From NCBI RefSeq assembly GCF_009753675.1, contig NZ_WQLV01000016.1, positions 1 through 64,000 of the forward strand: 64,000 nt of DNA, given 5' to 3'. The notes beneath the pieces were generated by a model that did no database searches, was not told where the DNA came from, and was given only the letters and a program-made list of their open reading frames with translations. The DNA is from Parasedimentitalea huanghaiensis. GTDB lineage: Bacteria > Pseudomonadota > Alphaproteobacteria > Rhodobacterales > Rhodobacteraceae. The translations under genes and the position numbers were made by a program. This document shows positions 26,305 to 41,221 of this stretch, piece after piece. Every line of letters begins with the position of its first letter. Position 1 is the stretch's first letter.

Positions 26305-27498
26305 TTAGTCCGCTGGCGACTGCTTAGTGGGATTACCCTGCGAAGTATCTTGCTTCTGCTGGATATCTTCGAGCCAGATACTATGGTGCTGTTTGGCCCA
26401 GGCCTCGTCGACCTCTCCGCTGCCCATCGCATCGTATGCCCCTTCCATACCAACCGAACCGATATAGATATGCGCAATGACGATCGCCATCAGCACAAAG
26501 GCCAGGATTGCGTGCCACAGCTGAGCCAGTTGCATCTCTTCTTGTGGCGCCAGCGTTTCTGACAATTCTCCAAGTCCCAGCAGGCTCGACAGCCCAATGT
26601 CGTTTACCACGGCAAACGTCTTGGCAAACATCGGTAACTCATATGGAAACAGCAGAGATACACCCGTGATCGAGATGGAGGCACCAAACAGAACAACAGA
26701 CCAGAAGATCACTTTTTGCCCGGCGTTGAACTTCTTAGCTGGAGGGTGCTTGCTGCCGACGATACCGCCAGCCTGTGAAATCCAAACCAAATCCGTGCGA
26801 TCTGGCAGGTTATGTACGACCCACATGACAAAGATAATCACCAATCCAACGATAAAGGCCCAGGCGACGTTGTTGTGCACCCATTTCCCCAACTCCAGAA
26901 ATGTCGCATTTGCTTCTTTCCCAAGATATGGGGCAATCGCCACGCGGCCAAACAATATAATCAATCCGGTAATGCCCAGCAAAATAAACGACCCACCCAA
27001 CAACCAATGGCCAAAGCGTTCAAACGCCTTGAAACGGGTCACTGTGCGGCCTGTTTTTTCACCATCTAAGGGAATTTTACCACGCAACAGATAGAACACG
27101 ACCAGCGATGCGAGCGTTCCCAGCAGTAACCAACCACCATACTCGCGCAGAGGCCCGGCCCGAAAAGCCAGCCATTTCATACCACCATCCTGGACCAGAA
27201 CCGTAGCGACTTCACCGCCAGCCGACACCCGAACGTCGGCCGAACCATAGCGCAATGCGCGCCAAAATTCAGGGTCTGAAACACCTCCCTGTGTCCCCAG
27301 TTGTGGTACGCCCGGCAGACTGGCTGAATCGCCAACGTTTTCACGTCGAAAAGTGTCGTCAACTGCGACACTGTTCTGGCGTGCCATAATGTCAGCAAGC
27401 GTTTGAGCCCCGCCAGTGGCGGAACGATCAGGTGTGGTTTGTGCTGTAGCTGGCAAGGCCATGGTCAGGCATACCAGTAGCCAAAGAAGAACGCGCAT
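26305..27498 (-). CDS. fdhC: Formate dehydrogenase gamma subunit, cytochrome b
   Basis: 397 residues from ATG 27498 (AGGA upstream); an upstream TTG/GTG-type extension would add residues before the clear signal peptide MRVLLWLLVCLTMALPATA. After a roughly 110-residue periplasmic region come four main membrane helices. They carry FERFGHWLLGGSFILLGITG and, near the end, LWHAILAFVLMAIVIAHIYIG, with the His residues that bind two hemes b. The protein anchors the periplasmic dehydrogenase and passes electrons to quinone. It is the last structural gene of the fdh set, followed by the 44-codon ORF after 134 bases. Confidence 0.9.
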   Translation of the reverse strand: MRVLLWLLVCLTMALPATAQTTPDRSATGGAQTLADIMARQNSVAVDDTFRRENVGDSASLPGVPQLGTQGGVSDPEFWRALRYGSADVRVSAGGEVATVLVQDGGMKWLAFRAGPLREYGGWLLLGTLASLVVFYLLRGKIPLDGEKTGRTVTRFKAFERFGHWLLGGSFILLGITGLIILFGRVAIAPYLGKEANATFLELGKWVHNNVAWAFIVGLVIIFVMWVVHNLPDRTDLVWISQAGGIVGSKHPPAKKFNAGQKVIFWSVVLFGASISITGVSLLFPYELPMFAKTFAVVNDIGLSSLLGLGELSETLAPQEEMQLAQLWHAILAFVLMAIVIAHIYIGSVGMEGAYDAMGSGEVDEAWAKQHHSIWLEDIQQKQDTSQGNPTKQSPAD

Positions 27499-27624
27499 TG
27501 GGTCCTCGACATTCTGTAAATTGAAAAGCGTCCCGTCTCCGGACGGACAACGGGCTGGAAGTTCTAACATTCCAATAGGTTTGCTACCGGCGGCCTTCAC
27601 AGCCGCCGACAATACTATAGTGGC

Positions 27625-28218
27625 CTACTCGCCCTTTTGGTCGTAGGCAGTGCCCCAACCCCAAGCACCAGCACCAAAGCCGCGAGAAACGATGCGCTCA
27701 CGGTAGACCGCGGACACGACGTCGCCGTCACCGGCCAGCAGTGCTTTGGTCGAGCACATCTCGGCGCAGATCGGCAGCTTGCCTTCAGCGATCCGGTTGC
27801 GACCATACTTGGCGAACTCAGCAGTGGAGTGGTTTTCTTCCGGTCCACCGGCGCAGAAGGTACACTTGTCCATCTTGCCACGGCTGCCGAAATTGCCGGC
27901 CTGCGGATACTGCGGCGCACCAAATGGGCACGCGTAGAAGCAGTATCCACAGCCGATGCACAGATCCTTGGAGTGCAGCACCACACCGTCGTCGGTCTGG
28001 TAGAAGCAATCCACTGGGCACACGGCCATACAAGGCGCATCCGAACAATGCATACAGGCGACTGAGATCGACCGTTCACCGGGTTTACCATCGTTGATGG
28101 TGACAACACGGCGGCGGTTGATACCCCAGGGCACCTCGTGCTCGTTCTTACAGGCGGTGACGCAGGCGTTGCATTCAATGCAGCGGTCGGCGTCGCAGAG
28201 GAACTTAGCTCTTGCCAT
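27625..28218 (-). CDS. fdhB: Formate dehydrogenase beta subunit, four-cluster ferredoxin
   Basis: 197 residues. Cysteine motifs for four 4Fe-4S clusters are present: CIECNACVTAC, CMHCSDAPCMAVCP, CIGCGYCFYACP and a C-x2-C...C-x3-C set around CTFC and CAEMCS. It relays electrons from the catalytic alpha subunit to cytochrome b. It lies twelve bases after the alpha-subunit stop with GGAG-like GAAAGA before ATG 28218. Confidence 0.95.
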   Translation of the reverse strand: MARAKFLCDADRCIECNACVTACKNEHEVPWGINRRRVVTINDGKPGERSISVACMHCSDAPCMAVCPVDCFYQTDDGVVLHSKDLCIGCGYCFYACPFGAPQYPQAGNFGSRGKMDKCTFCAGGPEENHSTAEFAKYGRNRIAEGKLPICAEMCSTKALLAGDGDVVSAVYRERIVSRGFGAGAWGWGTAYDQKGE

Positions 28219-28230
28219 CTTTCTTTCTCC

Positions 28231-31125
28231 TTATGCTGCGCTGATGCTGCAGAGAGTACATTTTGTCTCCTGCATCTGGGTGACGCTGTCATAGCCATAG
28301 GTCTGAGCAGTGTTTGAGCTTTCGCCCAGCACATAGGGGTCAGCTCCGTCGGGATATTTGTCCCGCAGATCCTTGCCCTGGTAGTGCCCACCAAAGTGGA
28401 ACGGCATAAAGGCTACGCCTTCTCCGACCCGCTCTGTCACCATCGCCATCACTTTGACTTTGCCGCCTTCGGGGCTTTCGACCCAGACCTGAGCCCCATC
28501 ACGCACGCCAATATTGTTGGCGTCTCGGGTGTTGATCTCGACAAACATGTCTTGCTGCAACTCAGCCAACCAAGGGTTGGATCGGCTTTCTTCGCCGCCA
28601 CCCTCATACTCGACCAACCGGCCGGATGTGAGAATGATCGGGAAGTCCTTGGACACGTCTTTCTTCTGGATCGAGGCATACAAAGTTGGCAGACGATAGG
28701 CCTGGCGGTCTTCGTATGTTGGATAGTCTTCGACCAGATCACGACGGTTGGTATACAGCGGCTCGCGGTGAACAGGCACCGGATCCGGGAAAGTCCAGAC
28801 CACAGCACGGGCCTTGGCGTTACCAAACGGAGCACACTCGTGCTTGATCGCAACCCGCTGGATGCCGCCCGACAGGTCGGTTTTCCAGTTGGTCTTTGGA
28901 CCTGCAACGGCATCAATCGATGCGCGTTCCTCATCCGTCAGATCACCGTCCCAGCCAAGATCCATCAGCATCTGCATGGTGAATTCCGGATATCCATCCT
29001 GGATTTCCGAGTTCACCGAGTAAACGCCATCGGCCAGAAGGTTGTCACCGTCCCGTTCAACACCAAAACGGGCACGGAAGGTAAGGCCACCCTCAGAAAC
29101 CGGCTTGGACATGTCGTACAGGTTTGGCGTACCAGGGTGGTTCATCTCGTCCGTACCCCAACACGGCCATGGCAGACCATAATAGTCCCCATCTGCCGGT
29201 CCACCAACAGCCCGCAAGGTGGTGCGGTCGAAGGTGTGCTGGTTGGCCATGTGCTTCTTCAAGCGCTCTGGGCTTTGGCCGGTATAGCCAATGGTCCACA
29301 GACCTTTGTTGAGTTCGCGTGTAACGCTTTCAACATTTGGCGTGTTTTCATCGTCCATTTCGATGTTACGGAAAAAGCGATCGGCCCAGCCAAATTTGTT
29401 AGCAAACAGACCCATGATTTCATGGTCAGTTTTGCTCTCAAACAGCGGATCAAAGATCTTATCCCGCCACTGAAGCGACCGGTTTGATGCTGTAACCGAG
29501 CCATATGTTTCGTACTGCGTACAGGCTGGCAACAAATAGCAACCATCGGTACGGTCATGCAAAACAGCCGAGACGGTGGGATACGGGTCGATCACGACCA
29601 GCATGTCCAGCTTCTCCATCGCTGTCTTCATTTCCGGACCACGGGTCTGCGAGTTTGGCGCGTGTCCCCAAAGAACCATCGCCCGCACGTTGTTGGGCTG
29701 GTCGATATTGTCCTTGTCTTCCAGAACGCCATCAATCCAACGGCTGACTGGGATACCCTTCAGGTTTTGTAGCGATTTATCTTTACCGTCTGCACTCTTC
29801 AACATGTCGAACTGGCTGGTCAGCCATTCGGGATCTTCATCCCAAACGCGTGCCCAATGGCCCCAGGCGCCTTTGGACAGGCCGTAGTAGCCCGGCAAAG
29901 TGTGGCTTAGAACACCAAGGTCGGTGGCACCCTGAACGTTGTCGTGGCCACGGAAAATGTTGGTCCCGCCACCACTTGTGCCCATATTGCCCAGCGCCAA
30001 TTGCAGGATACAATATGCACGGGTGTTGTTGTTGCCAGTGGTGTGTTGCGTACCACCCATACACCAAATCACGGTGCCGGGACGGTTGTTGGCCAATGTC
30101 TTGGCAACCCGGTGCAGCTGCGATCCGGGAACACCCGTTACGCGCTCAACCTCTTCTGGGTTCCACTTTTTGACCTCTTCCCTGATCTGGTCCATGCCCC
30201 AAACACGGGTGCGGATGAACTCTTTGTCTTCCCAGCCATTTTCAAAGATATGGTACAGGATACCCCAAACCAACGCGACGTCGGTGCCAGGACGGAGGCG
30301 GACGTACTCGTCAGCATGGGCCGCAGTTCGCGTGAAACGCGGATCACAAACGATCAGCGGCGCGTTGTTTTGTTCTTTGGCTTTCAGGATGTGCAGCAAG
30401 GAAACCGGGTGTGCCTCGGCTGGGTTGCCGCCAATCACAAAGATGGCTTTAGAGTTGTGGATGTCGTTGTAGCTGTTGGTCATGGCGCCGTAGCCCCATG
30501 TGTTGGCTACGCCAGCCACGGTTGTCGAGTGACAGATCCGCGCCTGGTGGTCGACGTTGTTTGTGCCCCAATAGGCCGCAAACTTGCGGAACAGATAGGC
30601 CTGTTCGTTGCTGTGTTTGGCCGAACCAAGCCAGTAAACACTGTCAGGTCCGCTTTCATCGCGGATATCCATCATACCGCCACCAATCTCGTCGATCGCC
30701 TGTTCCCAGCTGATGCGCTTCCATTCACCACCCTCTTTTTTCATCGGGTACTTCAGGCGACGTTCACCGTGGGCATGTTCGCGAACGGCTGCACCTTTGG
30801 CACAGTGGGCGCCCAAGTTGAACGGGCTGTCCCAACCAGGCTCTTGCCCGACCCAGACACCATTTTGAACTTCGGCAACCACAGTACAGCCGACTGAACA
30901 GTGGGTACAAACGGACTTTACGGTTTCGACAGCGCCCGCAGCAGCAGTTGCTGCATTGGCCCGCGCCACAGAACCGCCAGTGGCGGCAATCGCGGTCAGG
31001 CCACCGATGGCCAGACCAGAACCACGCAGAAATGCGCGGCGGTCAACGGAGCTTTCCGCGACCTTGGAGAGGATACTTGTCCGCTGGGAGCGTCTCGCAA
31101 CCCCGTTGGTCTTTTTCCTAAGCAT
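28231..31125 (-). CDS. fdhA: Formate dehydrogenase alpha subunit, Cys-type Mo/W enzyme
   Basis: 964 residues with a Tat signal (RRAFLRGSG, 29-37) and GGGAGG before ATG 31125. The 4Fe-4S site is Cys73, Cys76, Cys80 and Cys108. The metal ligand expected after HQARI is Cys198 (RICHS), not selenocysteine, and no in-frame TGA occurs. The molybdopterin-binding domains follow, ending in a dinucleotide-binding domain (ILTSGRLVEY, NTRDANNIGVRDG). It oxidises formate to CO2 in the periplasm. The nearby tungstate transporter suggests tungsten may be the metal (inference). Confidence 0.95.
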   Translation of the reverse strand: MLRKKTNGVARRSQRTSILSKVAESSVDRRAFLRGSGLAIGGLTAIAATGGSVARANAATAAAGAVETVKSVCTHCSVGCTVVAEVQNGVWVGQEPGWDSPFNLGAHCAKGAAVREHAHGERRLKYPMKKEGGEWKRISWEQAIDEIGGGMMDIRDESGPDSVYWLGSAKHSNEQAYLFRKFAAYWGTNNVDHQARICHSTTVAGVANTWGYGAMTNSYNDIHNSKAIFVIGGNPAEAHPVSLLHILKAKEQNNAPLIVCDPRFTRTAAHADEYVRLRPGTDVALVWGILYHIFENGWEDKEFIRTRVWGMDQIREEVKKWNPEEVERVTGVPGSQLHRVAKTLANNRPGTVIWCMGGTQHTTGNNNTRAYCILQLALGNMGTSGGGTNIFRGHDNVQGATDLGVLSHTLPGYYGLSKGAWGHWARVWDEDPEWLTSQFDMLKSADGKDKSLQNLKGIPVSRWIDGVLEDKDNIDQPNNVRAMVLWGHAPNSQTRGPEMKTAMEKLDMLVVIDPYPTVSAVLHDRTDGCYLLPACTQYETYGSVTASNRSLQWRDKIFDPLFESKTDHEIMGLFANKFGWADRFFRNIEMDDENTPNVESVTRELNKGLWTIGYTGQSPERLKKHMANQHTFDRTTLRAVGGPADGDYYGLPWPCWGTDEMNHPGTPNLYDMSKPVSEGGLTFRARFGVERDGDNLLADGVYSVNSEIQDGYPEFTMQMLMDLGWDGDLTDEERASIDAVAGPKTNWKTDLSGGIQRVAIKHECAPFGNAKARAVVWTFPDPVPVHREPLYTNRRDLVEDYPTYEDRQAYRLPTLYASIQKKDVSKDFPIILTSGRLVEYEGGGEESRSNPWLAELQQDMFVEINTRDANNIGVRDGAQVWVESPEGGKVKVMAMVTERVGEGVAFMPFHFGGHYQGKDLRDKYPDGADPYVLGESSNTAQTYGYDSVTQMQETKCTLCSISAA

Positions 31126-31235
31126 TATAACCTCCCTTGCTACCCGTTAATTCGGGCTTGCTAGGTTAACAAAAATCAGCAGGCGGTCGGGCGTCTCGCA
31201 ACCAGTTGCCTGCAGTGAATAACGTCGAGCGGTGT

Positions 31236-31427
31236 CTAGAACCGCACGCTGTCGAGGTAAGCGCGGGTATGCGCTGTATCCTGCATCTTGCTTGATGACA
31301 GGTCGGGTTCTGCGGCCTGCGCCTCGCCCCCCGTGGTCGCCACAGCCACCGCAGCCAGCGGTGCCGATGTTGCGGCCATCTTCAGAAAGTCTCGGCGGCT
31401 CGATGCCTCCTCAGTCTTCCTTGTCAT
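31236..31427 (-). CDS. Small Tat-signal protein of the formate dehydrogenase locus
   Basis: 63 residues. The Tat motif SRRDFLKMAATSAPLAAVAV is followed by cleavage at about AQAAE and a tail of roughly 27 residues ending YLDSVRF. GAGGAGG precedes the ATG. Such mini-Tat proteins are regular companions of this type of formate dehydrogenase and may be an extra subunit or an export escort; this is family knowledge, not proven here. The final residues are in a short region before fdhA with no other gene. Confidence 0.75.
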   Translation of the reverse strand: MTRKTEEASSRRDFLKMAATSAPLAAVAVATTGGEAQAAEPDLSSSKMQDTAHTRAYLDSVRF

Positions 31428-31477
31428 GAGTTTTCCTCCTCATTGGTGATAGACGGTTGCCCGCCCGACTATGCGGA

Positions 31478-32104
31478 TCACTCCGCGCTCATCCGAAAAC
31501 CTTCGGACTCGATCTCCATGAACACCCGGCCAACTGCGCCAACCGAGGCATAAAGAACCGAGTTCTTGGCGGCCTCCAGGTCCGAAAAGAAATGCCCAGC
31601 CCAAGGGCCAATGTGCTTATTGAAGAACGTTTTCTGGTCAACCAAGCTCGCCGGTTCTCCAAAACGCCCCACAATCAGAGCGCCCATCATTTCCATCAGT
31701 GAAGCAATATTATCCTCGGGCTCATAAACGTTCTGACCGCGAGTCATGCCACGTGCGGCCATGTCTCGGCGCAAAGCCGCAAGAGGCTTTTCATTCAGGA
31801 AACCCGTCAGATAGTAGCTGGCGTAGGGCAGCAGTTCGCCGCGTCCCAATCCAATGAACAGCTTATTGAATTCACTCTCTACCGTAGCAGCCTTGGACAG
31901 GCTCGCCAGCTTGGCCAGTGCGTTGATCGCGGTTCCAAGATCGCCGTCATCTCCTGACAATACAGCCGTTTGTTCCAACAACATCTGCTCTGGGGGTGTT
32001 GCAAGCAACAGGCCTAAAAAGTTGTATAGATCCGCCCTCAGGCGGTCTTCCTCAGTTACGCGGATTTCGTCGGCCACGGCTGTCATTGGCGTCTCCTCTG
32101 TCAT
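31478..32104 (-). CDS. TorD-family chaperone for formate dehydrogenase maturation
   Basis: 208 residues, all-helical in appearance. TorD/DmsD-like features are RLRADLYNFLGLLLATPP, FNKLFIGLGRGELLPYASYYLTGFLNEKPLA and the E-P-E-DNIASLMEMMG stretch (usually EPxDH). It should bind the Tat signal of the alpha subunit or the small Tat protein until cofactor is inserted. ATGA overlap with the DUF3306 gene upstream. Confidence 0.87.
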   Translation of the reverse strand: MTEETPMTAVADEIRVTEEDRLRADLYNFLGLLLATPPEQMLLEQTAVLSGDDGDLGTAINALAKLASLSKAATVESEFNKLFIGLGRGELLPYASYYLTGFLNEKPLAALRRDMAARGMTRGQNVYEPEDNIASLMEMMGALIVGRFGEPASLVDQKTFFNKHIGPWAGHFFSDLEAAKNSVLYASVGAVGRVFMEIESEGFRMSAE

Positions 32105-32733
32105 GTCTCAGCAGCTCCTTCATCAAACGCAAAGCGCATTCGGCGCGGAGCAGCATAGACGTGCAATTCATCAGCTTCATGTGCAGTATCGGCGGGCGCA
32201 ACATAGGCCACCTGCGCGGCCGCCTCTTGTTCCGGTTGTTCGATGTTGATCTCTTCGATCATCCCGGTCTCGTCTTCCGAAGCCTCGCTAATTTCGGCGA
32301 GTTGCTGTTTAGCAGCTTCAGCCTCTTCTTCTGCTTGGCGCGCCAACTCATCGACGTGAGCGGTCATGCCTTTGCCAACTTGATAGGCCGTCGGAATATT
32401 TTCGATCACACAGGAAGCGTCGGTGAAGTCTTCACCGTAGTCGACCAGCCCGTCAATATTTGCCAACACTGGGTTCGTTAGCCACAAACGGCGCAACGCG
32501 CGCGTTCGAATTCGGGCTGGGATCGTTTCGGTCAGGAACACCTTAAAGTCGTCCCCCTCGCCCAATGTGTTTGGGTCTGGCAGCTCCAAATCAGCCAAAA
32601 TTTCTGCATCACTTTTTTCCGCAACTCTGACATCACGTTCCTGTGCCTGCAGCTGCACCTCAGCCCGCGCATCTTCAACTGCTTCCGCCTCGACGGCGGC
32701 TTTGCGGCGCGCCCAGAAATCAGACCCGCTCAT
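32101..32733 (-). CDS. DUF3306 protein of the formate dehydrogenase operon
   Basis: 210 residues starting MSGSDFWARRKAAVEAE, the usual opening of DUF3306 proteins. A central conserved part (NTLGEGDDFKVFLTETIPARIRTRALRRLWLTNPVLANIDGLVDY) is followed by a very acidic Glu/Ala-rich region likely to be helical or disordered. Soluble; exact role unknown. Four-base overlaps with DUF3305 upstream and TorD downstream point to co-translation and a common job in dehydrogenase assembly. Confidence 0.85.
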   Translation of the reverse strand: MSGSDFWARRKAAVEAEAVEDARAEVQLQAQERDVRVAEKSDAEILADLELPDPNTLGEGDDFKVFLTETIPARIRTRALRRLWLTNPVLANIDGLVDYGEDFTDASCVIENIPTAYQVGKGMTAHVDELARQAEEEAEAAKQQLAEISEASEDETGMIEEINIEQPEQEAAAQVAYVAPADTAHEADELHVYAAPRRMRFAFDEGAAET

Positions 32734-33323
32734 TGCAGTCGTTCCTTCTTGGCCTTCACTGGCGAGCGATAGACATCTGCCAACTGAGAAATCCGTGCAT
32801 CGCCGATACCATCCTCAACAGCACCAATGTCGGTCTTGTCGCGGCGGCGCTTCTTGAAGCGCTCTTCGTGGTGATGCTCCAGCGCAAAGTCCCGCACCCA
32901 GGCAATCAATCCGTCGGGCATCGGAACTTTCTCGATAATTTCTTCGCCAGTATCAGCATAGTCCTGCGCCTCATAGGGCGAGGCAGTGACCAAAGTCACT
33001 TCCAACGAATGTTCTGTCGCATCGCTGTCGCGCAGCACCACATAAACACAAGGCACTTCCGCGCTGAGCCCGTGCAGATAAGACTCTGCATCAGACCCGT
33101 GCAACTCCAGCGATAGGGTTGCAGCATGAAAATCAGAGACACCGTCCTGTTCACGTAACAGCTGCCAATTGGTCTCAGCCGCGCCTGGTAAAACTGCTAT
33201 CGCTTTCCATGCGTACTTCGCCCACTGGGTCACACCCGGTGTGCGGCGCAGAACAACGCCAACTGGCATCACATCAAATTTGTCCGGATTGTGGATCAAG
33301 CGCTGGCAGTCCAATTTTGTCAA
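32730..33323 (-). CDS. DUF3305 protein of the formate dehydrogenase operon
   Basis: 197 residues from TTG 33323 with AGGA five bases upstream; ATG 33269 is in frame but lacks a binding site. The MPVGVVLRRTPGVTQWAKYAW motif is typical for DUF3305, followed by LELHGSDAESYLHGLS and PSPYEAQDY-like ASPYEAQDYAD. Function unknown; it nearly always occurs with DUF3306 and this dehydrogenase type. First gene of the minus-strand fdh run. Confidence 0.83.
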   Translation of the reverse strand: MTKLDCQRLIHNPDKFDVMPVGVVLRRTPGVTQWAKYAWKAIAVLPGAAETNWQLLREQDGVSDFHAATLSLELHGSDAESYLHGLSAEVPCVYVVLRDSDATEHSLEVTLVTASPYEAQDYADTGEEIIEKVPMPDGLIAWVRDFALEHHHEERFKKRRRDKTDIGAVEDGIGDARISQLADVYRSPVKAKKERLQ

Positions 33324-33645
33324 ATTTCCTAGTTAACGTGCCCCAACCAACCGTCTTTTCAAAAGCTGCTTTTTGCAATTAGACGGGGAATTCGTCACAT
33401 CCGGACAATTTGGACAGCGCGGAATACCGCGGCATGCAGGAACGGTCGTTTTGTCTAATTCGACGAAATCACTCGACAATAGGTACAGCTACCAATTCAG
33501 CGAATCATCTGGATTGATTCGCTGAATTCCGGGGTGTCCAGCAGTCTCAAAACTAGTTTACGAAGGCGAGGAATCATGCCTAGTTGGAAGCCAACACAGG
33601 GTGTCTAGCACCCCTTCTGCCAGTCTAAATGCAAGCGAGGAATAC
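33324..33645. promoter_or_regulatory. 322-bp divergent promoter region with a 14-bp-arm inverted repeat
   Basis: The region separates the fdh operon from the Fe-S protein gene. It contains a perfect inverted repeat: AATTCAGCGAATCA (33494-33507), a seven-base spacer, and TGATTCGCTGAATT (33515-33528). It is not followed by a T run and lies about 170 bp from one start and 118 bp from the other, so an operator or activator site is more likely than a terminator. I found no convincing sigma-54 promoter here. The rest of the gap shows nothing else I can name. Confidence 0.55.
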
Positions 33646-35592
33646 ATGGCCAAGCAACTGATTTTATGTGATTGTTCGGGATCACAACAGATCGACGCCA
33701 CCGCCCTTTCTCAGGCCACTGGGGTCAGCTGCTCCAAACTGCATTCGGCACTTTGTACCACCGGAATCGACACCGCAGCAGCCGCCTTGGCAGGGGGCGA
33801 AGCAACTATTTGCTGTGCCCAGGAACAACGTCTTTTTGAAGAACTGGCAGCTGAAATCGATGCCCCTGCCCCCCCCTGCCTCGATCTGCGTGATCGGGCC
33901 GGTTGGACATCGGATGAAGGCAATACACTACCCAAAATGTCCGCATTGATTGCCGAAGCGGGACTTTCCGTCCCTGCCGCGAAAGGTCTGGACGTAGTGT
34001 CTGAGGGGGTCTGTCTGATCCTTGGACCATCTGAGATCGCTTTGGCCGCGGCAGAAAAGCTTCAGGATGTGCTGGCCGTAACTGTCCTACTGGACAAGAC
34101 CGCCGAGCCCCCGATGAGCCGCGCCTTTGACGTGGTTCGAGGTGATCTGCGCCAAGCGTCAGGCGCACTCGGACAATTCGAAATCCGCATCGATGCGCTA
34201 CAGCAACTGGAACCTGTCGGGCGCAACTGGAACTGGAGTGATGCCCGGAATGGTGGCAGATCAAGCTGTGACATTATTCTGGATCTGACTGGTGGCACGT
34301 CACTGTTTCCAGCCCCGGAAAAACGCGAAGGCTATCTGCGTGCCGACCCTGCACATGCGCCTTCGGTAGCCGATGCTCTACTACAGGCATCCCAGATGGT
34401 CGGCACTTTTGAAAAGCCGTTATATGTGCGCAATGAACCGCTACTCTGCGCTCATTCCCGTGCAGGCCAGACCGGTTGCACCAACTGCCTTGATATCTGC
34501 CCGACCGGCGCCATCAGTTCTAGTGGTGACCATGTTAGCATCGATCCGATGATCTGTGCCGGGTGCAGCTCCTGCGCCACCCTGTGTCCTTCCGGTGCGC
34601 TCACCTACGATGCACCTCCTACAGACAGTCTGTTTCGTCGTATTCAGACCCTGGCCAAAGCCTATCTGGCCGCAGGTGGCGTCGCGCCGCGTCTGCTGGT
34701 TGTAAATGGACACGGCGGCGAAATGATCAGTTTGGCGGCGCGTTTTGGCCGTGGCTTGCCCGTTGATGTTGTGCCATTGGAGGTCGAGGCATTGAATACC
34801 TTCGGCCATGCTGAAGTCCTCGCCGCTTTAGCTGCTGGTTTTGCCACAGTCGACATCCTGCTCGCCCCCGGTGCCGAGCGCGACGTAATGGAGCGTGAAC
34901 TGGCATTGGCAAATGCCCTTGGCGGCAACAAGACAACCTTGCTTGACTTAAACGACCCAGATGCGCTGAGCGAAACCTTGTTTGGTGTCGAGGTGCCCGC
35001 AGCCCTGGGCGATGTCATTCGACCAATGGGAACCCGTCGCCAGATCACTCGCCAAGCAACTAAGGCGCTGATGCCTGACGCTGGGGTACTTCCACTGCCC
35101 TCGGATGCTCCCTACGGGGCCGTTTTAGTCGATACCAGCGCCTGCACCCTGTGCCTGTCCTGCGTATCGCTATGTCCTTCGGGTGCGTTGGGCGATAACC
35201 CCGACCTTCCCCAATTGCGGTTCCAGGAAGACGCCTGTCTGCAATGTGGTCTCTGTGCCAATATCTGCCCCGAAAAAGCAATCACGCTTGAACCACGTCT
35301 AAACCTGACCGACAGCGCCCTGTCGCAAACGGTCCTGCATGAGGAAGAACCGTTTGCCTGTGTAGAATGCGGCTCACTCTTTGGGGTTAAGTCCACGGTT
35401 GAAAAAATTGTCGAAAAGCTGGCGGGGAAACATTCGATGTTCCAGAATCCTGGGGCTGCGCGGATGATTCAGATGTGTGACAATTGCAGGGTTGATGCCC
35501 AGTATCATCAGGAGAACAACCCCTTTGGTGGCGGTGACCGGCCGCGCGTACGTACCACCGACGACTACCTCAGCAAGCGTCGCGATCACTGA
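33646..35592 (+). CDS. Multi-cluster 4Fe-4S protein of the formate dehydrogenase locus
   Basis: 648 residues from ATG 33646 (GCGAGGAA upstream); a GTG at 33601 is less likely. A first ferredoxin pair holds Cys268, 278, 281, 285 and Cys304, 307, 310, 314. A second pair lies at about 517-560 (CTLCLSCVSLCPSGAL, CLQCGLCANICPEKAI). A C-terminal part has CVECGSLFG and CDNCR, which may bind zinc or another cluster. The N-terminal 250 residues have further Cys-rich motifs (CDCSGSQQ, TICCAQE). It is a standard neighbour of this dehydrogenase and probably moves electrons in the cytoplasm during formate metabolism or cofactor assembly. Its 3' end overlaps the cytochrome gene by seven bases. Confidence 0.85.
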   Translation: MAKQLILCDCSGSQQIDATALSQATGVSCSKLHSALCTTGIDTAAAALAGGEATICCAQEQRLFEELAAEIDAPAPPCLDLRDRAGWTSDEGNTLPKMSALIAEAGLSVPAAKGLDVVSEGVCLILGPSEIALAAAEKLQDVLAVTVLLDKTAEPPMSRAFDVVRGDLRQASGALGQFEIRIDALQQLEPVGRNWNWSDARNGGRSSCDIILDLTGGTSLFPAPEKREGYLRADPAHAPSVADALLQASQMVGTFEKPLYVRNEPLLCAHSRAGQTGCTNCLDICPTGAISSSGDHVSIDPMICAGCSSCATLCPSGALTYDAPPTDSLFRRIQTLAKAYLAAGGVAPRLLVVNGHGGEMISLAARFGRGLPVDVVPLEVEALNTFGHAEVLAALAAGFATVDILLAPGAERDVMERELALANALGGNKTTLLDLNDPDALSETLFGVEVPAALGDVIRPMGTRRQITRQATKALMPDAGVLPLPSDAPYGAVLVDTSACTLCLSCVSLCPSGALGDNPDLPQLRFQEDACLQCGLCANICPEKAITLEPRLNLTDSALSQTVLHEEEPFACVECGSLFGVKSTVEKIVEKLAGKHSMFQNPGAARMIQMCDNCRVDAQYHQENNPFGGGDRPRVRTTDDYLSKRRDH

Positions 35593-36329
35593 TGTTGCAA
35601 CGGAGCTCCCAGATCTGCAGGCGGCAGATTGGCGACATAGGCAAGGATTGCCTCCAACTGATCGAGGGTCATTTCAACCGGCACAATTGGCGAAGGTCGA
35701 TCCGGTGCAAAAGGCTCAGTCACGCCCTCCACCTGCGTAAAAGATGGATGTGGGTTGAGGACATAGAAAGTCTGGAAACGCTCAACCCAGTTCTCCAGTG
35801 TTCTCAGTACAAAAAACGACGGGGTAGAGCCGATAGCATTCATCCGCTCGTCATCCCGCACCACATGACAACGGCCACACATCCGGCGCGACAGATCCTG
35901 GCCCAGCGCCGCGTCACCGTCAAATACAACACCCGCGTCCAGTGCCTGCTTGGTGAGGGGCAACGTAAACATCTGGACACCACCGGGCGCATAGCTCGTA
36001 ATAGTACGCTGACCAATGTCCGAGTCCAACCAGCTCAGGAAACGCTGCACAGCTTGTTGCTCCGGCGCCAAAACCTGCATGTACCAGGTCGACCGGGGGC
36101 CAACAAAAACCGGTTCACCGGTCGCGCCCAGCGCAATGTCATGTGCCTGACCCGCTGTGACGACCTGAACCCGAATTTGGGTCTTGAGCGAGAACCGCGG
36201 CAACAGGTGCTTCAGCAAGCCACTGTCAACCAGAGCCTGCGGCGCCATCAGCCGCACCAACCTGTCATCAGCCCGTGCAATCGGCGCGAAACTCAGGCAA
36301 ATAGAAATCAGAACAATCAGTCGGGTCAT
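35586..36329 (-). CDS. Periplasmic c-type cytochrome fused to a shortened TupA-like domain
   Basis: 247 residues from ATG 36329 after which a signal peptide (LIVLISICLSFAPIARA) follows. Residues 24-72 line up with the start of mature TupA: R-L/M..., SGL..LLP, V..V..G, LGA.G. Residues about 90-124 line up with the TupA C-terminus (WL.SD, I..Y, G...FT). The roughly 158 residues between are missing, so anion binding is unlikely. Residues 135-240 form a single-heme cytochrome c with CGRCH (151-155) and Met220 as possible axial ligand. It is likely an electron acceptor or donor in the formate dehydrogenase locus (inference). Confidence 0.75.
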   Translation of the reverse strand: MTRLIVLISICLSFAPIARADDRLVRLMAPQALVDSGLLKHLLPRFSLKTQIRVQVVTAGQAHDIALGATGEPVFVGPRSTWYMQVLAPEQQAVQRFLSWLDSDIGQRTITSYAPGGVQMFTLPLTKQALDAGVVFDGDAALGQDLSRRMCGRCHVVRDDERMNAIGSTPSFFVLRTLENWVERFQTFYVLNPHPSFTQVEGVTEPFAPDRPSPIVPVEMTLDQLEAILAYVANLPPADLGAPLQHQ

Positions 36330-36395: not shown

Positions 36396-37463
36396 GTGTC
36401 TCTCACCCGTGAATCCGTCCTCGCCGCGCTCAAGTCCATCACTGACCCAATCAGTGGCAGCGATATCGTCAGCGCCGGCGTCATGCGCGCCCTCACAGTC
36501 GAAGGGACTGAGGTCCGCTTCGTCCTCGAAATTGACCCTGCAAGCGCCGAGGCCTATGGCCCGGTGCGCGACGCCGCCGAAAAAGTTGTGACCGATATTG
36601 TCGGTGTCGACAAAGTTTCGGCCCTGCTGACCGGTCATGCCGCCAAGTCCGCCCCACCGGACCTAAAACCATCAAAACCCGCACAGCCGCAGGGCCCGCA
36701 AAAAATTCCCGGTGTTGACCGCATCATCGCTGTTGCCTCAGGCAAGGGCGGCGTGGGAAAATCTACTGTTTCAGCCAATCTGGCCTGTGCTCTGGCAGCT
36801 GAGGGCCGCCGCGTTGGATTGTTGGATGCTGATGTTTATGGCCCGTCACAACCGCGAATGTTGGGGATCTCGGGTCGCCCCGCCAGCCCAGATGGAAAAA
36901 CCATCCTGCCAATGCGCAACCATGGCGTCACAATGATGTCGATCGGGCTGATGACCAACGAGGATCAGGCCGTCGTCTGGCGTGGACCAATGCTGATGGG
37001 GGCGCTGCAACAGATGATGATGCAGGTGCAGTGGGGCGCTCTGGATGTGCTGATCGTCGACCTTCCGCCCGGCACCGGCGACGTACAGATGACCTTGGCG
37101 CAAAAGGCAGAAGTGGACGGTGCTATCGTGGTTTCAACTCCGCAGGATGTGGCTTTGATCGATGCACGCAAAGGCATCGATATGTTCAACCAGCTCCACG
37201 TCCCAATCCTGGGCATGATCGAAAACATGTCGACCCATATCTGTTCCAATTGTGGCCACGAGGAGCATGTCTTTGGCCATGGGGGCGTGGTCGCAGAGGC
37301 AGCCAAGCTGAATGTTCCCCTGTTGGCTGAAGTCCCGCTGCATCTTGACGTTCGTTTGGCCTCTGATGGTGGTGCACCGATTGTTGTCAGCAAACCCGAC
37401 AGCCCGCAGGCGCAGGTGTTCCGAAACGTTGCTCAGGATTTAATCCAACGGGGCGCAGCATGA
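36396..37463 (+). CDS. Mrp/ApbC-family iron-sulfur cluster carrier ATPase
   Basis: 355 residues from GTG 36396 with AGGAG ten bases upstream. An N-terminal MIP18-like (DUF59) domain spans 1-80. The P-loop ATPase follows with the deviant Walker A SGKGGVGKS (about 112-120), DLPPGTGD and the CSNCG motif near residue 283 for a bridging cluster. It transfers Fe-S clusters to target proteins, fitting the Fe-S-rich neighbours. Overlaps the next gene by four bases and is divergent from the cytochrome gene. Confidence 0.92.
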   Translation: MSLTRESVLAALKSITDPISGSDIVSAGVMRALTVEGTEVRFVLEIDPASAEAYGPVRDAAEKVVTDIVGVDKVSALLTGHAAKSAPPDLKPSKPAQPQGPQKIPGVDRIIAVASGKGGVGKSTVSANLACALAAEGRRVGLLDADVYGPSQPRMLGISGRPASPDGKTILPMRNHGVTMMSIGLMTNEDQAVVWRGPMLMGALQQMMMQVQWGALDVLIVDLPPGTGDVQMTLAQKAEVDGAIVVSTPQDVALIDARKGIDMFNQLHVPILGMIENMSTHICSNCGHEEHVFGHGGVVAEAAKLNVPLLAEVPLHLDVRLASDGGAPIVVSKPDSPQAQVFRNVAQDLIQRGAA

Positions 37464-38164
37464 GCGACGTCTCCTTTCCCCCACTTTTGCATGGCCATCA
37501 GGTCAGCGGCGTGGAGGACCCCTTTGATACAGCGTGTAAAAAGGCAATCTTCGGCTGTGATGCCGGCTTGGTAACCTTCAATCTGGCACCGGACATTCTT
37601 CGGGCGGCAATGGTGTTTGCCCCCGAGGTTCCTCTTCGAAAAGCAATGGCAATGATGCCTACCTGCGGCGTAGGGTTTCAAAACGCATTGGGAGCATTGG
37701 CGCCACCTGAAGTCGCGGTTCATTTAGAATGGCAGGGTGCAGTCCGGGTCAACGGTGCCCGTTGTGGTAGCCTGCGAGCCGCCGCCAGTTGCTCGGATCC
37801 TGAGGTAACGCCTGACTGGCTGGTCATCGGGCTAGAATTGCCGTTGTGGCCCGCTTCCGAAGATACCGGTCATTCACCCGATGAAACCGCGCTTTATGCC
37901 GAAGGCTGTGCGGATGTCGAAGCGCCTGCTTTGTTGGAAAGCTGGGCCCGCCATAGTCTACACTGGATCACACGCTGGGAAGACGACAACGGTAGAGCCC
38001 TGCACGCTGAATGGCGCAGCCTCGCCCATGGTATGGGAGAGGACACAGTACAAAATGCGCTATCAGGCAGCTTCTTGGGTATTGATGAAGATTTTGGCAT
38101 GCTCTTGCGTGCTGAAGACACCACCCACATGATCCCCCTGACATCCTTACTGGAGACATCGTGA
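37460..38164 (+). CDS. DUF4444 / biotin-lipoate ligase-like protein
   Basis: 234 residues. The start (FPPLLHGHQVSG...DPFDTACKKA), the APEVPLRKAMAMMPTCGVGFQNALGALAPPEVAVHLEW block and VNGARCGSLR resemble the biotin/lipoate A/B ligase-like proteins with a C-terminal DUF4444. The catalytic Lys of true ligases cannot be confirmed. No signal peptide. It overlaps ApbC (four bases) and the next gene (one base), so the three are co-translated. Actual substrate unknown. Confidence 0.65.
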   Translation: MSDVSFPPLLHGHQVSGVEDPFDTACKKAIFGCDAGLVTFNLAPDILRAAMVFAPEVPLRKAMAMMPTCGVGFQNALGALAPPEVAVHLEWQGAVRVNGARCGSLRAAASCSDPEVTPDWLVIGLELPLWPASEDTGHSPDETALYAEGCADVEAPALLESWARHSLHWITRWEDDNGRALHAEWRSLAHGMGEDTVQNALSGSFLGIDEDFGMLLRAEDTTHMIPLTSLLETS

Positions 38165-38643
38165 TGCAACTTGCCCGCGCCATCCATTTTGACGAGAGCG
38201 ACCAACGTGTCTTTGCCAGCCCAGCCCGCACCGGCGAGTGGTGTGTTTCAGGCGGGTTTGAATTTTCCAACTGGGGTGAGTCCGACCTGAGTGGCAAGCC
38301 AAAGCAGGCCTTTTCCAATGGCTGGATGGGCTTGGAAACTGCTGGTCGAGTAACCTTTGTCGCGGTTACTCAAATCGAGCAGAGTGAGCTCGACACCTTG
38401 ACCGACCTGTTGTCCAAGCATTTTGTAGATTTCTATGGTGCCCCAGACATCAACGCCGCTCGTCCAGTTGCGACCGAAGAACTAGCGCAAATGCTAGATC
38501 TTTGCGCGGAGCATGATGCCAACACCTTGCTAACCGTATCGCGTGAATTGACCAGTTCTGGCGTCAAAGAGGCCTTCCGCACCATCGAGCCGCAAGCTGC
38601 CGGTTTGGAGCAATTTGCAATTCATGGTGATATGGACGCATGA
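38164..38643 (+). CDS. Conserved small protein, DUF6505-like
   Basis: 159 residues; ATG 38164 overlaps the preceding stop (TGATG). It contains RVFASPARTGEWCVSGGFEFSNW and KQAFSNGWMGLE, motifs I associate with a conserved family of Rhodobacterales (DUF6505), and is soluble. No function is known. It is the last gene of the apbC run and ends before a strong bidirectional terminator. Confidence 0.6.
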   Translation: MQLARAIHFDESDQRVFASPARTGEWCVSGGFEFSNWGESDLSGKPKQAFSNGWMGLETAGRVTFVAVTQIEQSELDTLTDLLSKHFVDFYGAPDINAARPVATEELAQMLDLCAEHDANTLLTVSRELTSSGVKEAFRTIEPQAAGLEQFAIHGDMDA

Positions 38644-38745: not shown

Positions 38746-39546
38746 CTATTTGGCATTGAAAACAAACAACGTCTCACCATTGATCTTGTACTCATTGATC
38801 AATGTTTTGGCGCGGTCTGAAACCAGCCAGTCTTCCAGTTTCATCGCCAGGTCATTCTGAACATGATCATGTTTTTCGGGGTTTACCGGAATATACGCAT
38901 ATTGGTTGAACAGTACCGGATCACCAGAGAACAGCAGCTCTAGGTCGCCCTTGTTGCCAAAGTTCAACCAACTGGCCCGGTCTGCCATAATATATGCCCC
39001 GAGACCTGAAGCGGTATTCAACGCAGCGCCCATCCCGGCACCAACCGCATTGTACCAGTCGCCAAGCTCCAGTGCATTCAAATCGGCGGTTTGCCACAGG
39101 CTCAGCTCTTTTTTGTGGGTACCACTGTCATCGCCACGACTGACAAAGACCGCATGAGTTGTTGCAATTTTCAGCAATGCGTTTGCTGCGGTATCCGCCG
39201 AACTTACGCCAGCGATATCCCCTTTCGGTCCGATGAAAACGAAGTCATTATACATGATCTCGCGACGATGGGTGCCGTTGCCACCAGCCAGAAATTCTTC
39301 CTCGGCCTTTTTTGAGTGCACCAAAATTGCATCGACATCGCCTGCCGCACCCAAGCGCAACGCTTGACCAGTTCCAACAACAACCAGATGTACCTGCAGC
39401 CCCAAATCGGCCTTAATTTCTGGAAGCAGTATGTCTGACAGGCCCGAGTTATGGAACGACGTGGTCACTGCCATCCGCATTTCTTCGGCAAATGAAGCCG
39501 AAGTTAAGGCTAGTGAGGCAATCGCGCCAAAAATTATTTGTTTCAC
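38746..39546 (-). CDS. tupA: Tungstate ABC transporter binding protein
   Basis: 266 residues from GTG 39546, with a signal peptide (GAIASLALTSASFA). The ligand-binding motif VTTS...NSGL, the VVVGTGQALRLGAAGDVDAILVHS block, RGDDSGTHKKEL and the C-terminal INEYKINGETLF motif are typical of TupA/WtpA-type tungstate proteins rather than ModA. It supplies tungstate to TupB/TupC. The gene order B-C-A differs from the common A-B-C. It overlaps tupC by four bases. Confidence 0.9.
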   Translation of the reverse strand: MKQIIFGAIASLALTSASFAEEMRMAVTTSFHNSGLSDILLPEIKADLGLQVHLVVVGTGQALRLGAAGDVDAILVHSKKAEEEFLAGGNGTHRREIMYNDFVFIGPKGDIAGVSSADTAANALLKIATTHAVFVSRGDDSGTHKKELSLWQTADLNALELGDWYNAVGAGMGAALNTASGLGAYIMADRASWLNFGNKGDLELLFSGDPVLFNQYAYIPVNPEKHDHVQNDLAMKLEDWLVSDRAKTLINEYKINGETLFVFNAK

Positions 39547-40253
39547 TCTACAATGTCTCCTCTTAGAAACGCGCGTCCCTGTTTGGTCTCAGCCCCAGCA
39601 AAAAATTGGCTTGCGGGCGTGAATTCGTGGATCCGGCCATGCAGCACAAAAATCACTTCATCGGCCAGTCGTTGGGCTTGGCCCATATTGTGTGTCGACA
39701 TAATCAACCGGGTGCCATCAGCCGCTGCTGTGGTCAAAATTTCTTCGATCTCACGGGTGGCACGGCCGTCCAGTGACGCACAGGGTTCATCCAGGAACAG
39801 TACATCTGGATTACGGATCAATGCCCGTGCCAGTGCCAGTTTTTGCCGCTCGCCGCCGGATAACATGGTCGCTTGTTGCTTTACGGTATGGCCTAGACCA
39901 ACCCGTTCTGCCCAGTCTTGCGCGCGCCGTCTGGCCTCTGCCTTTGTCACGCCGATCAAGCGTAGAGGATAGGCGATATTTTCAATCACAGTGCGTCGCA
40001 TCATAACGGGTGCCTGAAACACAAACCCCTGCCGTTTTTGCGCTTCGTCCTTTGGGCAAGCCCATGTCAAACTGCCGGCATTCATCCGGGCAATACCATG
40101 TAGCATCTTAAGCAAAGTGGTTTTACCGGCTCCATTGGGACCAATGACGATGGTTACACCTTGCCCTTGCAAGGTCAGGTCAATCGGGCCAACCAATACC
40201 TTGCCCTGACGGCGCACCACGGCCTGTTTGGCTTCTAGTGGGAACATCTGCAT
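39543..40253 (-). CDS. tupC: Tungstate ABC transporter ATPase
   Basis: 236 residues from ATG 40253, which overlaps the tupB stop (TGATG). Walker A GPNGAGKTTLLK, signature MLSGGERQKLALARAL, and Walker B VLFLDEPCASLD followed by MSTHNM. It energises tungstate uptake with TupB. Short for an ABC ATPase because it lacks the regulatory TOBE domain of ModC. Confidence 0.9.
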   Translation of the reverse strand: MQMFPLEAKQAVVRRQGKVLVGPIDLTLQGQGVTIVIGPNGAGKTTLLKMLHGIARMNAGSLTWACPKDEAQKRQGFVFQAPVMMRRTVIENIAYPLRLIGVTKAEARRRAQDWAERVGLGHTVKQQATMLSGGERQKLALARALIRNPDVLFLDEPCASLDGRATREIEEILTTAAADGTRLIMSTHNMGQAQRLADEVIFVLHGRIHEFTPASQFFAGAETKQGRAFLRGDIVE

Positions 40254-40957
40254 CACCAGCGGCCCTCACTCTCGGTATGGCTCAATCGGTGGATCAAAAG
40301 GTTCACCGTCACAGCCAAAGCAATCAGAATAAACCCAAGTGCCAATGCCAGGGCAAATTCACCCTTACCAGTTTCGAGCGCGATAGCCGTCGTCAGTACG
40401 CGGGTTGCATGGTCGATATTGCCACCAACAATCATAATCGCGCCGACCTCGCCAATGGCCCGACCGAACCCAGCCAGGGCCGCCGTCAGCAGTGCCCGTC
40501 GCCCATCCCAGAGCAAAGCCTGAATACGTTGAAACTGGGTGGTGTTCATCGAGATCAGCAGGTCATGATAGTCCCCCCAAAGCTCGCGTAGTGACTGATG
40601 CGCAATGGAGGCAATCAGCGGCACGATAATAATCACCTGCGCGATGATCATTGCTGTTGGGGTAAAAAGCAGTCCAAACACCCCAAACGGTCCTGAACGG
40701 GACAAAAACACATAAACCACAAGGCCCACCACAACTGGCGGCAGCCCCATCAAGGCATTTAGCACTGCGATGGTAATCCGGCGAAGACGAAAACGGCGAA
40801 CCGATAAGAAGGCTGCGAATGGAAGAGCTATGGCAGAGGCAATCAGCAGTGCCGTCAGTGTAACACGCAGGGATCGCAAACTGATTTCAACCAGATCAGC
40901 ATCCAACGTCACCAGCAGCCAAAAGGCCTGTGTCAATCCGCTCCACAAGTCAGACAT
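40253..40957 (-). CDS. tupB: Tungstate ABC transporter permease
   Basis: 234 residues from ATG 40957 (AGGAG upstream), which matches the usual TupB start; upstream ATGs would add a 44-residue, Cys-rich unrelated leader. Five or so helices carry the ABC permease EAA-type loop (RALLTAALAGFGRAIGEVGAIMIVGG). It is the channel of the tungstate uptake system. The 264-bp gap to its right holds its likely promoter; nothing else is recognised there. Confidence 0.88.
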   Translation of the reverse strand: MSDLWSGLTQAFWLLVTLDADLVEISLRSLRVTLTALLIASAIALPFAAFLSVRRFRLRRITIAVLNALMGLPPVVVGLVVYVFLSRSGPFGVFGLLFTPTAMIIAQVIIIVPLIASIAHQSLRELWGDYHDLLISMNTTQFQRIQALLWDGRRALLTAALAGFGRAIGEVGAIMIVGGNIDHATRVLTTAIALETGKGEFALALALGFILIALAVTVNLLIHRLSHTESEGRW

Positions 40958-41221
40958 TGCTTCCGGTTTACTCCTCATGGGCCACGGATCGCGGCAGCCT
41001 AACACGGATGTTATAGCTTCCAAATCACAGCTAGGGACGTAGCAATAGACAAAAACGACCAACCCGCCCCAAAAGGACAGATTGGCCATTGAATATCTCC
41101 CCTTGCGTTGAAACAGGGTCAGTTTGCGCAGGCCAAGGGTATTACGAGCGCGGCTATTTAGTTGGCGAAATCATCGCCTACTTCGCACGTTACACTGACT
41201 GTTTTGTCTCAAATAACTCGG

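Follow-up and report, generated by a model that had tools for sequence, protein, structure and literature searches.

Tungstate-binding TupA, part of the TupABC transporter (NF041772; PDB 5my5 and 3lr1), is divided in passages of the 2017 structure paper (PMC5517513) into lobe A (A2-R76 and Y201-E251), a central strand (T77-P89), and lobe B (A91-Q200); the TTTS motif belongs to lobe A, and the residues R118, T124, and D170 are on the opposite side. Membrane-bound formate dehydrogenases of the FDH3 type are encoded at loci with fdh3B, DUF3305/DUF3306, and TorD genes; passages of another paper (PMC4464133) place the DUF3305/DUF3306 pair with dmsD-fdhGHI operons. We analyzed a gene of Parasedimentitalea huanghaiensis that lies at such a locus and joins part of TupA to a cytochrome c domain (here called the fusion). 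It was found in a stretch of 64,000 nucleotides (contig NZ_WQLV01000016.1, positions 1 to 64,000), which we refer to as the window.

The fusion has in common with TupA the sequence and predicted fold of lobe A, drawn from both ends of the TupA chain. Unlike TupA, it has no lobe B, no TTS motif, and none of the Arg, Thr, and Asp residues of lobe B; it has Lys where TupA mostly has Asp or Glu, and it has an added heme domain. With alphaproteobacterial class I cytochromes c that have a PHxxMP loop (loci L156 to L160), it shares CxxCH, a Pro-containing loop, and a PH motif, but the Met of that loop is mostly Phe in the fusion, and a lobe is attached. Stand-alone relatives of the cytochrome half in other alphaproteobacterial families (L144 to L147, L149, L150, L152, and L188) have the same GSTPSF (or close) and then PH motifs and share the company of Fdh or Tup genes; the lobe profile described below finds no TupA lobe in them. 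At the FDH3-type locus, the fusion is a regular gene, yet, so far as we found, it is not among the described subunits. A search of open-access papers yielded no description of a fusion of a TupA lobe with a cytochrome. Passages of PMC6147048 list cytochrome fusions to molybdoenzymes, with no TupA fusion among those passages, and the word cytochrome is absent from the main text of PMC13197769, on tungsten maturation in Methylorubrum.

TupA ancestry of the N-terminal domain

Relatives were collected by a search of 198 genomes of the window's family, 92 of which had some match. We aligned 73 full fusions (leaving out L001, which is nearly identical to the window; L076 and L103, which are cut by contig ends; and L107 and L108, which have the cytochrome only) and 33 TupA proteins (leaving out L001 and L078). 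The original prediction relied on direct comparison of the fusion with the full-length TupA of the window. That comparison is weak alone: BLASTP gave an E value of 2e-4 over 66 columns for the N-terminal end and of only 49 for the C-terminal end. The similarity itself is nevertheless borne out by family profiles, and we regard TupA ancestry as established because it is seen with family-wide profiles and not in the single pair from the window. When the 73 fusions were compared with the 33 TupA proteins using hhalign, the N-terminal part scored 97.8% (E = 6.8e-13); with an alignment of the lobe only, the C-terminal part scored 97.6% (E = 4.8e-12). Each run reported one part only. A hidden Markov model (HMM) of the lobe matched two collinear stretches in 34 of 34 TupA proteins (about TupA residues 21 to 70 and 230 to 265), with about 160 residues between them in TupA versus about 17 in the fusion; for the weaker TupA cases, the single N-terminal stretch had E values of up to 0.25. 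These boundaries agree with the earlier estimate that 48 and 34 residues from the two ends of TupA are kept and about 158 are lost between them.

The specificity of the lobe profile was determined with a control set of 19,981 open reading frames (ORFs) from fdh and tup neighborhoods, in which other binding-protein families are thin. The profile matched 79 fusion frames, mostly its own building blocks, and all 47 TupA frames (42 with an E value of <1e-3 and 5 with an E value of <0.05). Nothing outside the fusion and TupA classes was matched at an E value of ≤1, and reversed decoys of the same set gave no match. As an independent check, the profile was run against 177,635 PDB sequences, and the first four ranks were 3muq (E = 9.5e-7), 5my5 (E = 1.8e-5), 3cvg (E = 1.4e-4), and 3lr1 (E = 0.0056). 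The PDB lists 5my5 and 3lr1 as tungstate-binding proteins, 3muq as deposited uncharacterized, and 3cvg as a putative metal-binding protein. In a single-sequence search of the PDB, TupA 3lr1 ranked first (E = 0.00045). Given the lack of off-class and decoy matches, together with the PDB result, we rejected a chance match; the TupA similarity is above background.

The window's own fusion scored 11.7 bits (E = 0.13) against the NCBIfam TupA model, under the curated cutoff of 400 bits. The full-length TupA of the window is also below that cutoff (189.7 bits; E = 6.1e-56). Individually, 14 of the 73 fusions matched the model at an E value of ≤0.01, the best at 1.8e-6. No binding-protein family of Pfam, PBP_like_2 included, matched the window's fusion at an E value of ≤10; PBP_like_2 matched the full TupA at 6.9e-33. 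With the lobe HMM, E values were 6e-16 to 2e-11 for ten TupA proteins of another type and 2e-10 to 3e-5 for the remaining 24, among them near relatives of the window's TupA. Since these near relatives are in the group with the weaker matches, the lobe is unlikely to be a recent duplicate of the neighboring TupA.

The AlphaFold2 model of the full fusion had a mean predicted local distance difference test score (pLDDT) of 90.8, with values of 96 to 98 over residues 31 to 120; the lobe alone was modeled with a pLDDT of 94.8 and a predicted template modeling score (pTM) of 0.84. Foldseek ranked TupA 5my5 first in the PDB for both the full model and the lobe. For the lobe, the match had an E value of 1.3e-3, a query-normalized template modeling score (TM) of 0.68, and a root mean square deviation (rmsd) of 9.2, spanning 248 TupA columns; every other TM among the 50 matches listed was ≤0.45. 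For the whole model, the best E value was 4.6e-3 (TM, 0.31; rmsd, 9.7). Because neither query had a Foldseek match at an E value of ≤0.001, the evidence for the fold rests jointly on rank, TM, and sequence. The structure predictions thus agree with the TupA assignment: the N-terminal region is a confidently modeled lobe with TupA 5my5 as its best fold match in the PDB. Roughly as the cited passages of PMC5517513 define these parts, the fusion retains most of lobe A but neither the central strand nor lobe B. The TupA-derived portion is about 105 residues long, and it is not a two-lobed periplasmic binding fold; only lobe A is present, and about 160 residues are absent. We conclude that the lobe of the fusion shares ancestry with lobe A of TupA.

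Loss of the tungstate site and features of the heme domain

None of the 73 fusions has TT, TTS, or TSS before the SGL motif, whereas TTS is present in 32 of the 33 TupA proteins. TupA residues His77, Arg137, Thr143, and Asp189, each invariant in all 33 proteins, are in or beside the part missing from the fusion; judged by sequence context, they probably correspond to H59, R118, T124, and D170 in the cited passages of PMC5517513. We conclude that the lobe cannot act as TupA does. Because the domain has lost lobe B together with the TTS motif and the residues that contact the oxyanion in TupA, the earlier suggestion that the domain reports tungsten status was not borne out.

The lobe is under constraint. 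Arg45 and Lys49 are invariant in all 73 fusions, and TupA conserves neither position as Arg or Lys; at the TupA position that matches Lys49, 28 of 33 proteins have Asp or Glu and 2 have Lys. The ratio of nonsynonymous to synonymous substitutions (dN/dS) was computed for the lobe in two pairs, the sole pairs with >68% identity. The ratio was about 0.15 in one pair (dN, 0.23; dS, 1.5, which is near saturation) and about 0.34 in the other (dN, 0.24; dS, 0.70).

The predicted CGRCH heme motif follows the lobe, close to the start of the cytochrome domain, and C-x-R-C-H is present in 73 of 73 fusions. Pfam Cytochrom_C (PF00034) matches the window's fusion at 14.2 bits (E = 0.11), below its cutoff of 21.3 bits, and profile matches to PDB cytochrome c chains are weak, with E values of 0.009 and above. 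Five ordinary cytochromes matched by the cytochrome profile have Met in a PHPxMP motif (PHASMP in one of them). The fusions mostly have Phe at that position, and none of the 73 has Met there. A Met within 12 residues of the PH motif is found in 5 of the 73 fusions, Met163 is found in 51, and 4 have no Met anywhere after CxxCH. His194 is invariant. The simplest guess from the absence of the usual Met and the invariance of His194 is that a bound heme would have two His ligands.

Conserved place at the formate dehydrogenase locus and distribution

We compared 75 fusion loci (73 from family genomes besides the window's own, together with L001 and L002). The fusion is exactly between the polyferredoxin gene and apbC, with the same orientation pattern, in 69 of them; the remaining six comprise four truncated at a contig end and two with no apbC beside the fusion. 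FdhA is within the fetched stretch of 71 of these loci and TupA within that of 29, and the usual neighbors are FdhABC, TorD, DUF3306, DUF3305, the biotin/lipoate ligase family protein with DUF4444, and DUF6505. The beta subunit is named fdh3B on a public Sagittula plasmid. The setting first proposed, a formate dehydrogenase locus with tungstate uptake genes, is supported, and the search for further fusions and their neighbors found the fusion in 74 of the 198 family genomes. We conclude that the fusion is a conserved accessory of the FDH3-type formate dehydrogenase locus.

The coordinates originally given for the gene are correct, and its strand, which the original prediction did not state, is minus (Table 1). 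The 3′ end of the gene is convergent with the polyferredoxin gene, which it overlaps by 7 bases. The gene is divergent from apbC, with 66 bases between the two starts; this gap has one promoter-like match on the minus strand, which proves nothing alone.

Table 1. Positions of the fusion gene, its parts, and neighboring genes in the window
Feature	Coordinates	Strand	Basis or remark
TupA-lobe/cytochrome c fusion gene	35586..36329	minus	247 amino acids plus stop
Predicted signal peptide, residues 1-20	36270..36329	minus	read from sequence by eye
TupA lobe A domain, residues 22-126, without lobe B and central strand	35952..36266	minus	profile comparison, predicted fold
Segment homologous to mature TupA start, residues 22-70 (TupA ~21-70)	36120..36266	minus	profile comparison
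Segment homologous to TupA C terminus, residues 88-126 (TupA ~230-265)	35952..36068	minus	profile comparison
Mono-heme cytochrome c domain, residues 137-247	35589..35921	minus	weak PF00034 match, weak profile matches, CxRCH in 73/73
Heme attachment motif CGRCH, residues 151-155	35865..35879	minus	sequence
His194, invariant, candidate sixth heme ligand	35748..35750	minus	73/73 fusions; ligand role putative
FdhC, cytochrome b subunit (Ni_hydr_CYTB)	26305..27612	minus	family scan
FdhB, iron-sulfur subunit	27625..28218	minus	family scan
FdhA, formate dehydrogenase alpha	28231..31125	minus	family scans; twin-arginine (Tat) signal read by eye
TorD-family chaperone, DUF3306, DUF3305	31478..33323	minus	family scans
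Polyferredoxin (4Fe-4S) protein, neighbor on one side	33601..35592	plus	family scans
ApbC/Mrp iron-sulfur carrier, neighbor on other side	36396..37463	plus	E = 2.6e-103; 345.8 bits against 348-bit cutoff
Biotin/lipoate ligase family protein with DUF4444	37460..38164	plus	family scan
DUF6505 protein	38161..38643	plus	family scan
Full-length TupA, comparison protein	38746..39546	minus	NCBIfam TupA, E = 6.1e-56
TupC, ATP-binding cassette (ABC) ATPase	39543..40256	minus	assignment by position and sequence; relatives have homologues next to TupA
TupB permease	40253..41089	minus	assignment by position and sequence; true start possibly farther downstream

Some of the loci on plasmids differ in small genes. 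In Sagittula (L191), the fusion is on a large plasmid with formate dehydrogenase genes. The place of the torD-fdhA gap (31126-31477 in the window) holds a gene for a small twin-arginine signal protein in L191. A small gene, DUF6494, separates apbC from the fusion in L191 (8741-8932) and adjoins the fusion in the large Sulfitobacter plasmid L190 (8706-8897), whose gene table is without apbC; in the window, there are only 66 bases at that place. At the start of the L190 record, the fusion is found with tup-like transporter, DUF3305, and DUF3306 genes. In the five plasmid records found, the fusion is annotated as a hypothetical protein in four and as a c-type cytochrome in one.

Among the 198 family genomes, DUF3305 was found in 98 (six of these hits are weak, with E values of 5e-33 to 1e-12) and TupA in 138. 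All 74 fusion genomes have a full TupA and 73 have DUF3305, the exception being G008, which is 82% complete. The association of the fusion with DUF3305 had a Fisher P value of 4e-31 over the 198 genomes, related genomes not being independent. TupA is present in 98 of 98 DUF3305 genomes versus 40 of 100 others, which suggests that this formate dehydrogenase uses tungsten across the family. The fusion is absent from 25 of the 98 DUF3305 genomes. These include the six with weak DUF3305 hits and two genomes, G004 and G054, in which the cytochrome half alone is encoded elsewhere; the remaining matches of the 198-genome search are to the start of TupA.

Label changes between presence and absence of the fusion occur at least 10 times on strongly supported branches of an FdhA tree of 92 sequences. 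The tree was made with a quick method, has no bootstrap, and is midpoint rooted for drawing only; L112 was dropped as the same locus as L168, and loci with FdhA at ≤900 bits were left out. L144, which has the cytochrome half only, is located among the fusion bearers (the nearest fork has a support of 89 and is drawn open) and has most likely lost the lobe.

At the level of the class, 385 genomes were searched and the best candidates, at most seven per genome, were scored. Some match was found in 129 genomes, most of those listed being to one half only, with full-length matches in seven genomes, of which five belong to the window's family and two to a second family (f80). A search of 398 genomes of the phylum (number outside the class not given), in which at most the best six candidates per genome were scored, gave matches at an E value of 1e-10 in 10 genomes, all of the window's class. 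There was no match to the fusion among phage records. Twelve loci with a stand-alone cytochrome were fetched from outside the family, and eight of these, the relatives listed above, are near Fdh or Tup genes. The simplest history is that the stand-alone cytochrome came first, with one fusion toward the window's family and then repeated loss; the rooting is not proven.

The arrangement of the stand-alone genes varies. In L188 (9765-12440), the cytochrome gene immediately precedes tupB, tupC, and tupA, all four being on one strand, which suggests a single operon. In L145 (9030-12786) and L146 (6406-10139), genes for the cytochrome, a small protein of unassigned function (~100 amino acids), a ModE-like regulator (identified by eye), and TupA stand in a row, which adjoins a multicopper-oxidase-like gene with a Tat signal (both identified by eye). 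A separate formate dehydrogenase neighborhood, L161 (7500-12411), has two TupA copies near one tupBC pair.

Proposed function and alternatives

On balance, we think it probable, though not strongly so, that the fusion is a periplasmic electron carrier for the FDH3-type dehydrogenase in which a TupA half-lobe without its tungstate site has been reused for docking. A mono-heme periplasmic cytochrome c would serve the FDH3-type, probably tungsten-dependent, FdhABC of roseobacters and relatives. Lobe A, with lobe B excised, would persist as a small folded module for docking, by which the heme is brought close to a partner (most likely the dehydrogenase itself or the cytochrome b subunit); the cytochrome would accept or hand on electrons along a side branch that runs beside the route through quinone. 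We place the protein on the periplasmic side of FdhABC because of its locus company and apparent export signal, and we propose a docking module because the lobe is folded, is constrained, and carries invariant basic residues. Of the two roles first suggested, the idea that a captured domain was retained to bind a partner is supported by the confident fold, by a dN/dS of <1 in both pairs, and by the invariance of Arg45 and Lys49; the binding itself is presumed. A more specific version, in which a cytochrome without Met ligation is, through lobe docking, dedicated to a tungsten Fdh as its periplasmic electron partner and forms a direct formate-cytochrome branch that bypasses quinone, is possible but doubtful.

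Several observations weigh against an electron carrier with a docking lobe. Ten intact fdh loci are cleanly without the fusion, with the polyferredoxin gene directly adjoining apbC (L168, L169, L170, L172, L173, L175, L176, L180, L182, and L183); the fusion is therefore not needed to keep the enzyme. The lobe is dispensable as well, because at L144 (9642-10109) the place of the fusion is taken exactly by the cytochrome half alone, preceded by an apparent signal peptide of its own. The lobe is more variable than the cytochrome (mean pairwise identity of 36% versus 54%), and the full model leaves the relative orientation of the domains uncertain (pTM, 0.62). Four stand-alone loci outside the family (L148, L151, L153, and L189) and the two cytochrome-only loci of the family (L107 and L108) have no fdh or tup gene in the fetched stretch.

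Some of these points would fit a lobe that is a leftover spacer from gene fusion with no role, the cytochrome half working alone: L144 retains only that half at the same place, stand-alone cytochromes exist in other families, and the lobe varies more than the cytochrome. We consider such a spacer unlikely, since the lobe is modeled with high confidence (pLDDT, 94.8), has invariant residues that TupA does not conserve, has a dN/dS of <1 in both pairs, and accompanies the cytochrome in 74 of the 76 family genomes that encode it. Tungsten or molybdenum sensing or carriage, in which the half-lobe would still touch TupA, TupB, or the oxyanion and the heme would report on this or assist in loading the enzyme, would be in line with the full TupA of all 74 fusion genomes, with the presence of TupA within the stretch retrieved for 29 of the 75 fusion loci, and with the related cytochrome directly before tupBCA in L188. 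It is argued against because the residues that hold tungstate are gone (the TTS motif from 73 of 73 fusions, and Arg137, Thr143, and Asp189 with the lost lobe). The link to TupA is explained by the enzyme, because TupA is in all 98 genomes with the locus marker DUF3305, including the 25 without the fusion. For both reasons we rejected a tungsten sensor as the leading explanation, and we consider it improbable.

We find it equally hard to credit that the fusion acts in maturation or redox balance of the dehydrogenase, for example as a heme partner of ApbC or the polyferredoxin. The fusion does adjoin both genes in 69 of 71 loci once those truncated at a contig end are set aside, but it is presumably periplasmic, by its signal read by eye, whereas ApbC and the polyferredoxin have no export signal by eye, and the 10 loci without the fusion retain both neighbors. 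More generally, an accessory electron route fits better than a required assembly factor because of the repeated clean absence. Least probable of all, and very much so, is a protein that senses or binds a small molecule at a five-coordinate or weakly His-ligated heme and is not an electron carrier. The Met of PHxxMP, present in five of five ordinary relatives, is never Met in the 73 fusions, and 4 fusions have no Met after CxxCH, which would fit such a heme; however, the invariant His194 is a candidate for the sixth ligand, 51 of the 73 fusions have Met163, and in 5 a Met is found no more than 12 residues from PH. An accessory periplasmic electron carrier with a docking lobe therefore remains the explanation that we prefer.

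The domain architecture of the fusion, which is found in 73 of the 98 sampled family genomes with the DUF3305 marker, seems not to have been described before. It clearly exemplifies the survival of one lobe of a two-lobed binding protein as a separate folded domain. Strains without the fusion gene, or with the cytochrome half only, offer natural comparisons. For the tungsten-linked formate dehydrogenase of roseobacters and their relatives, the fusion names a specific candidate electron partner.

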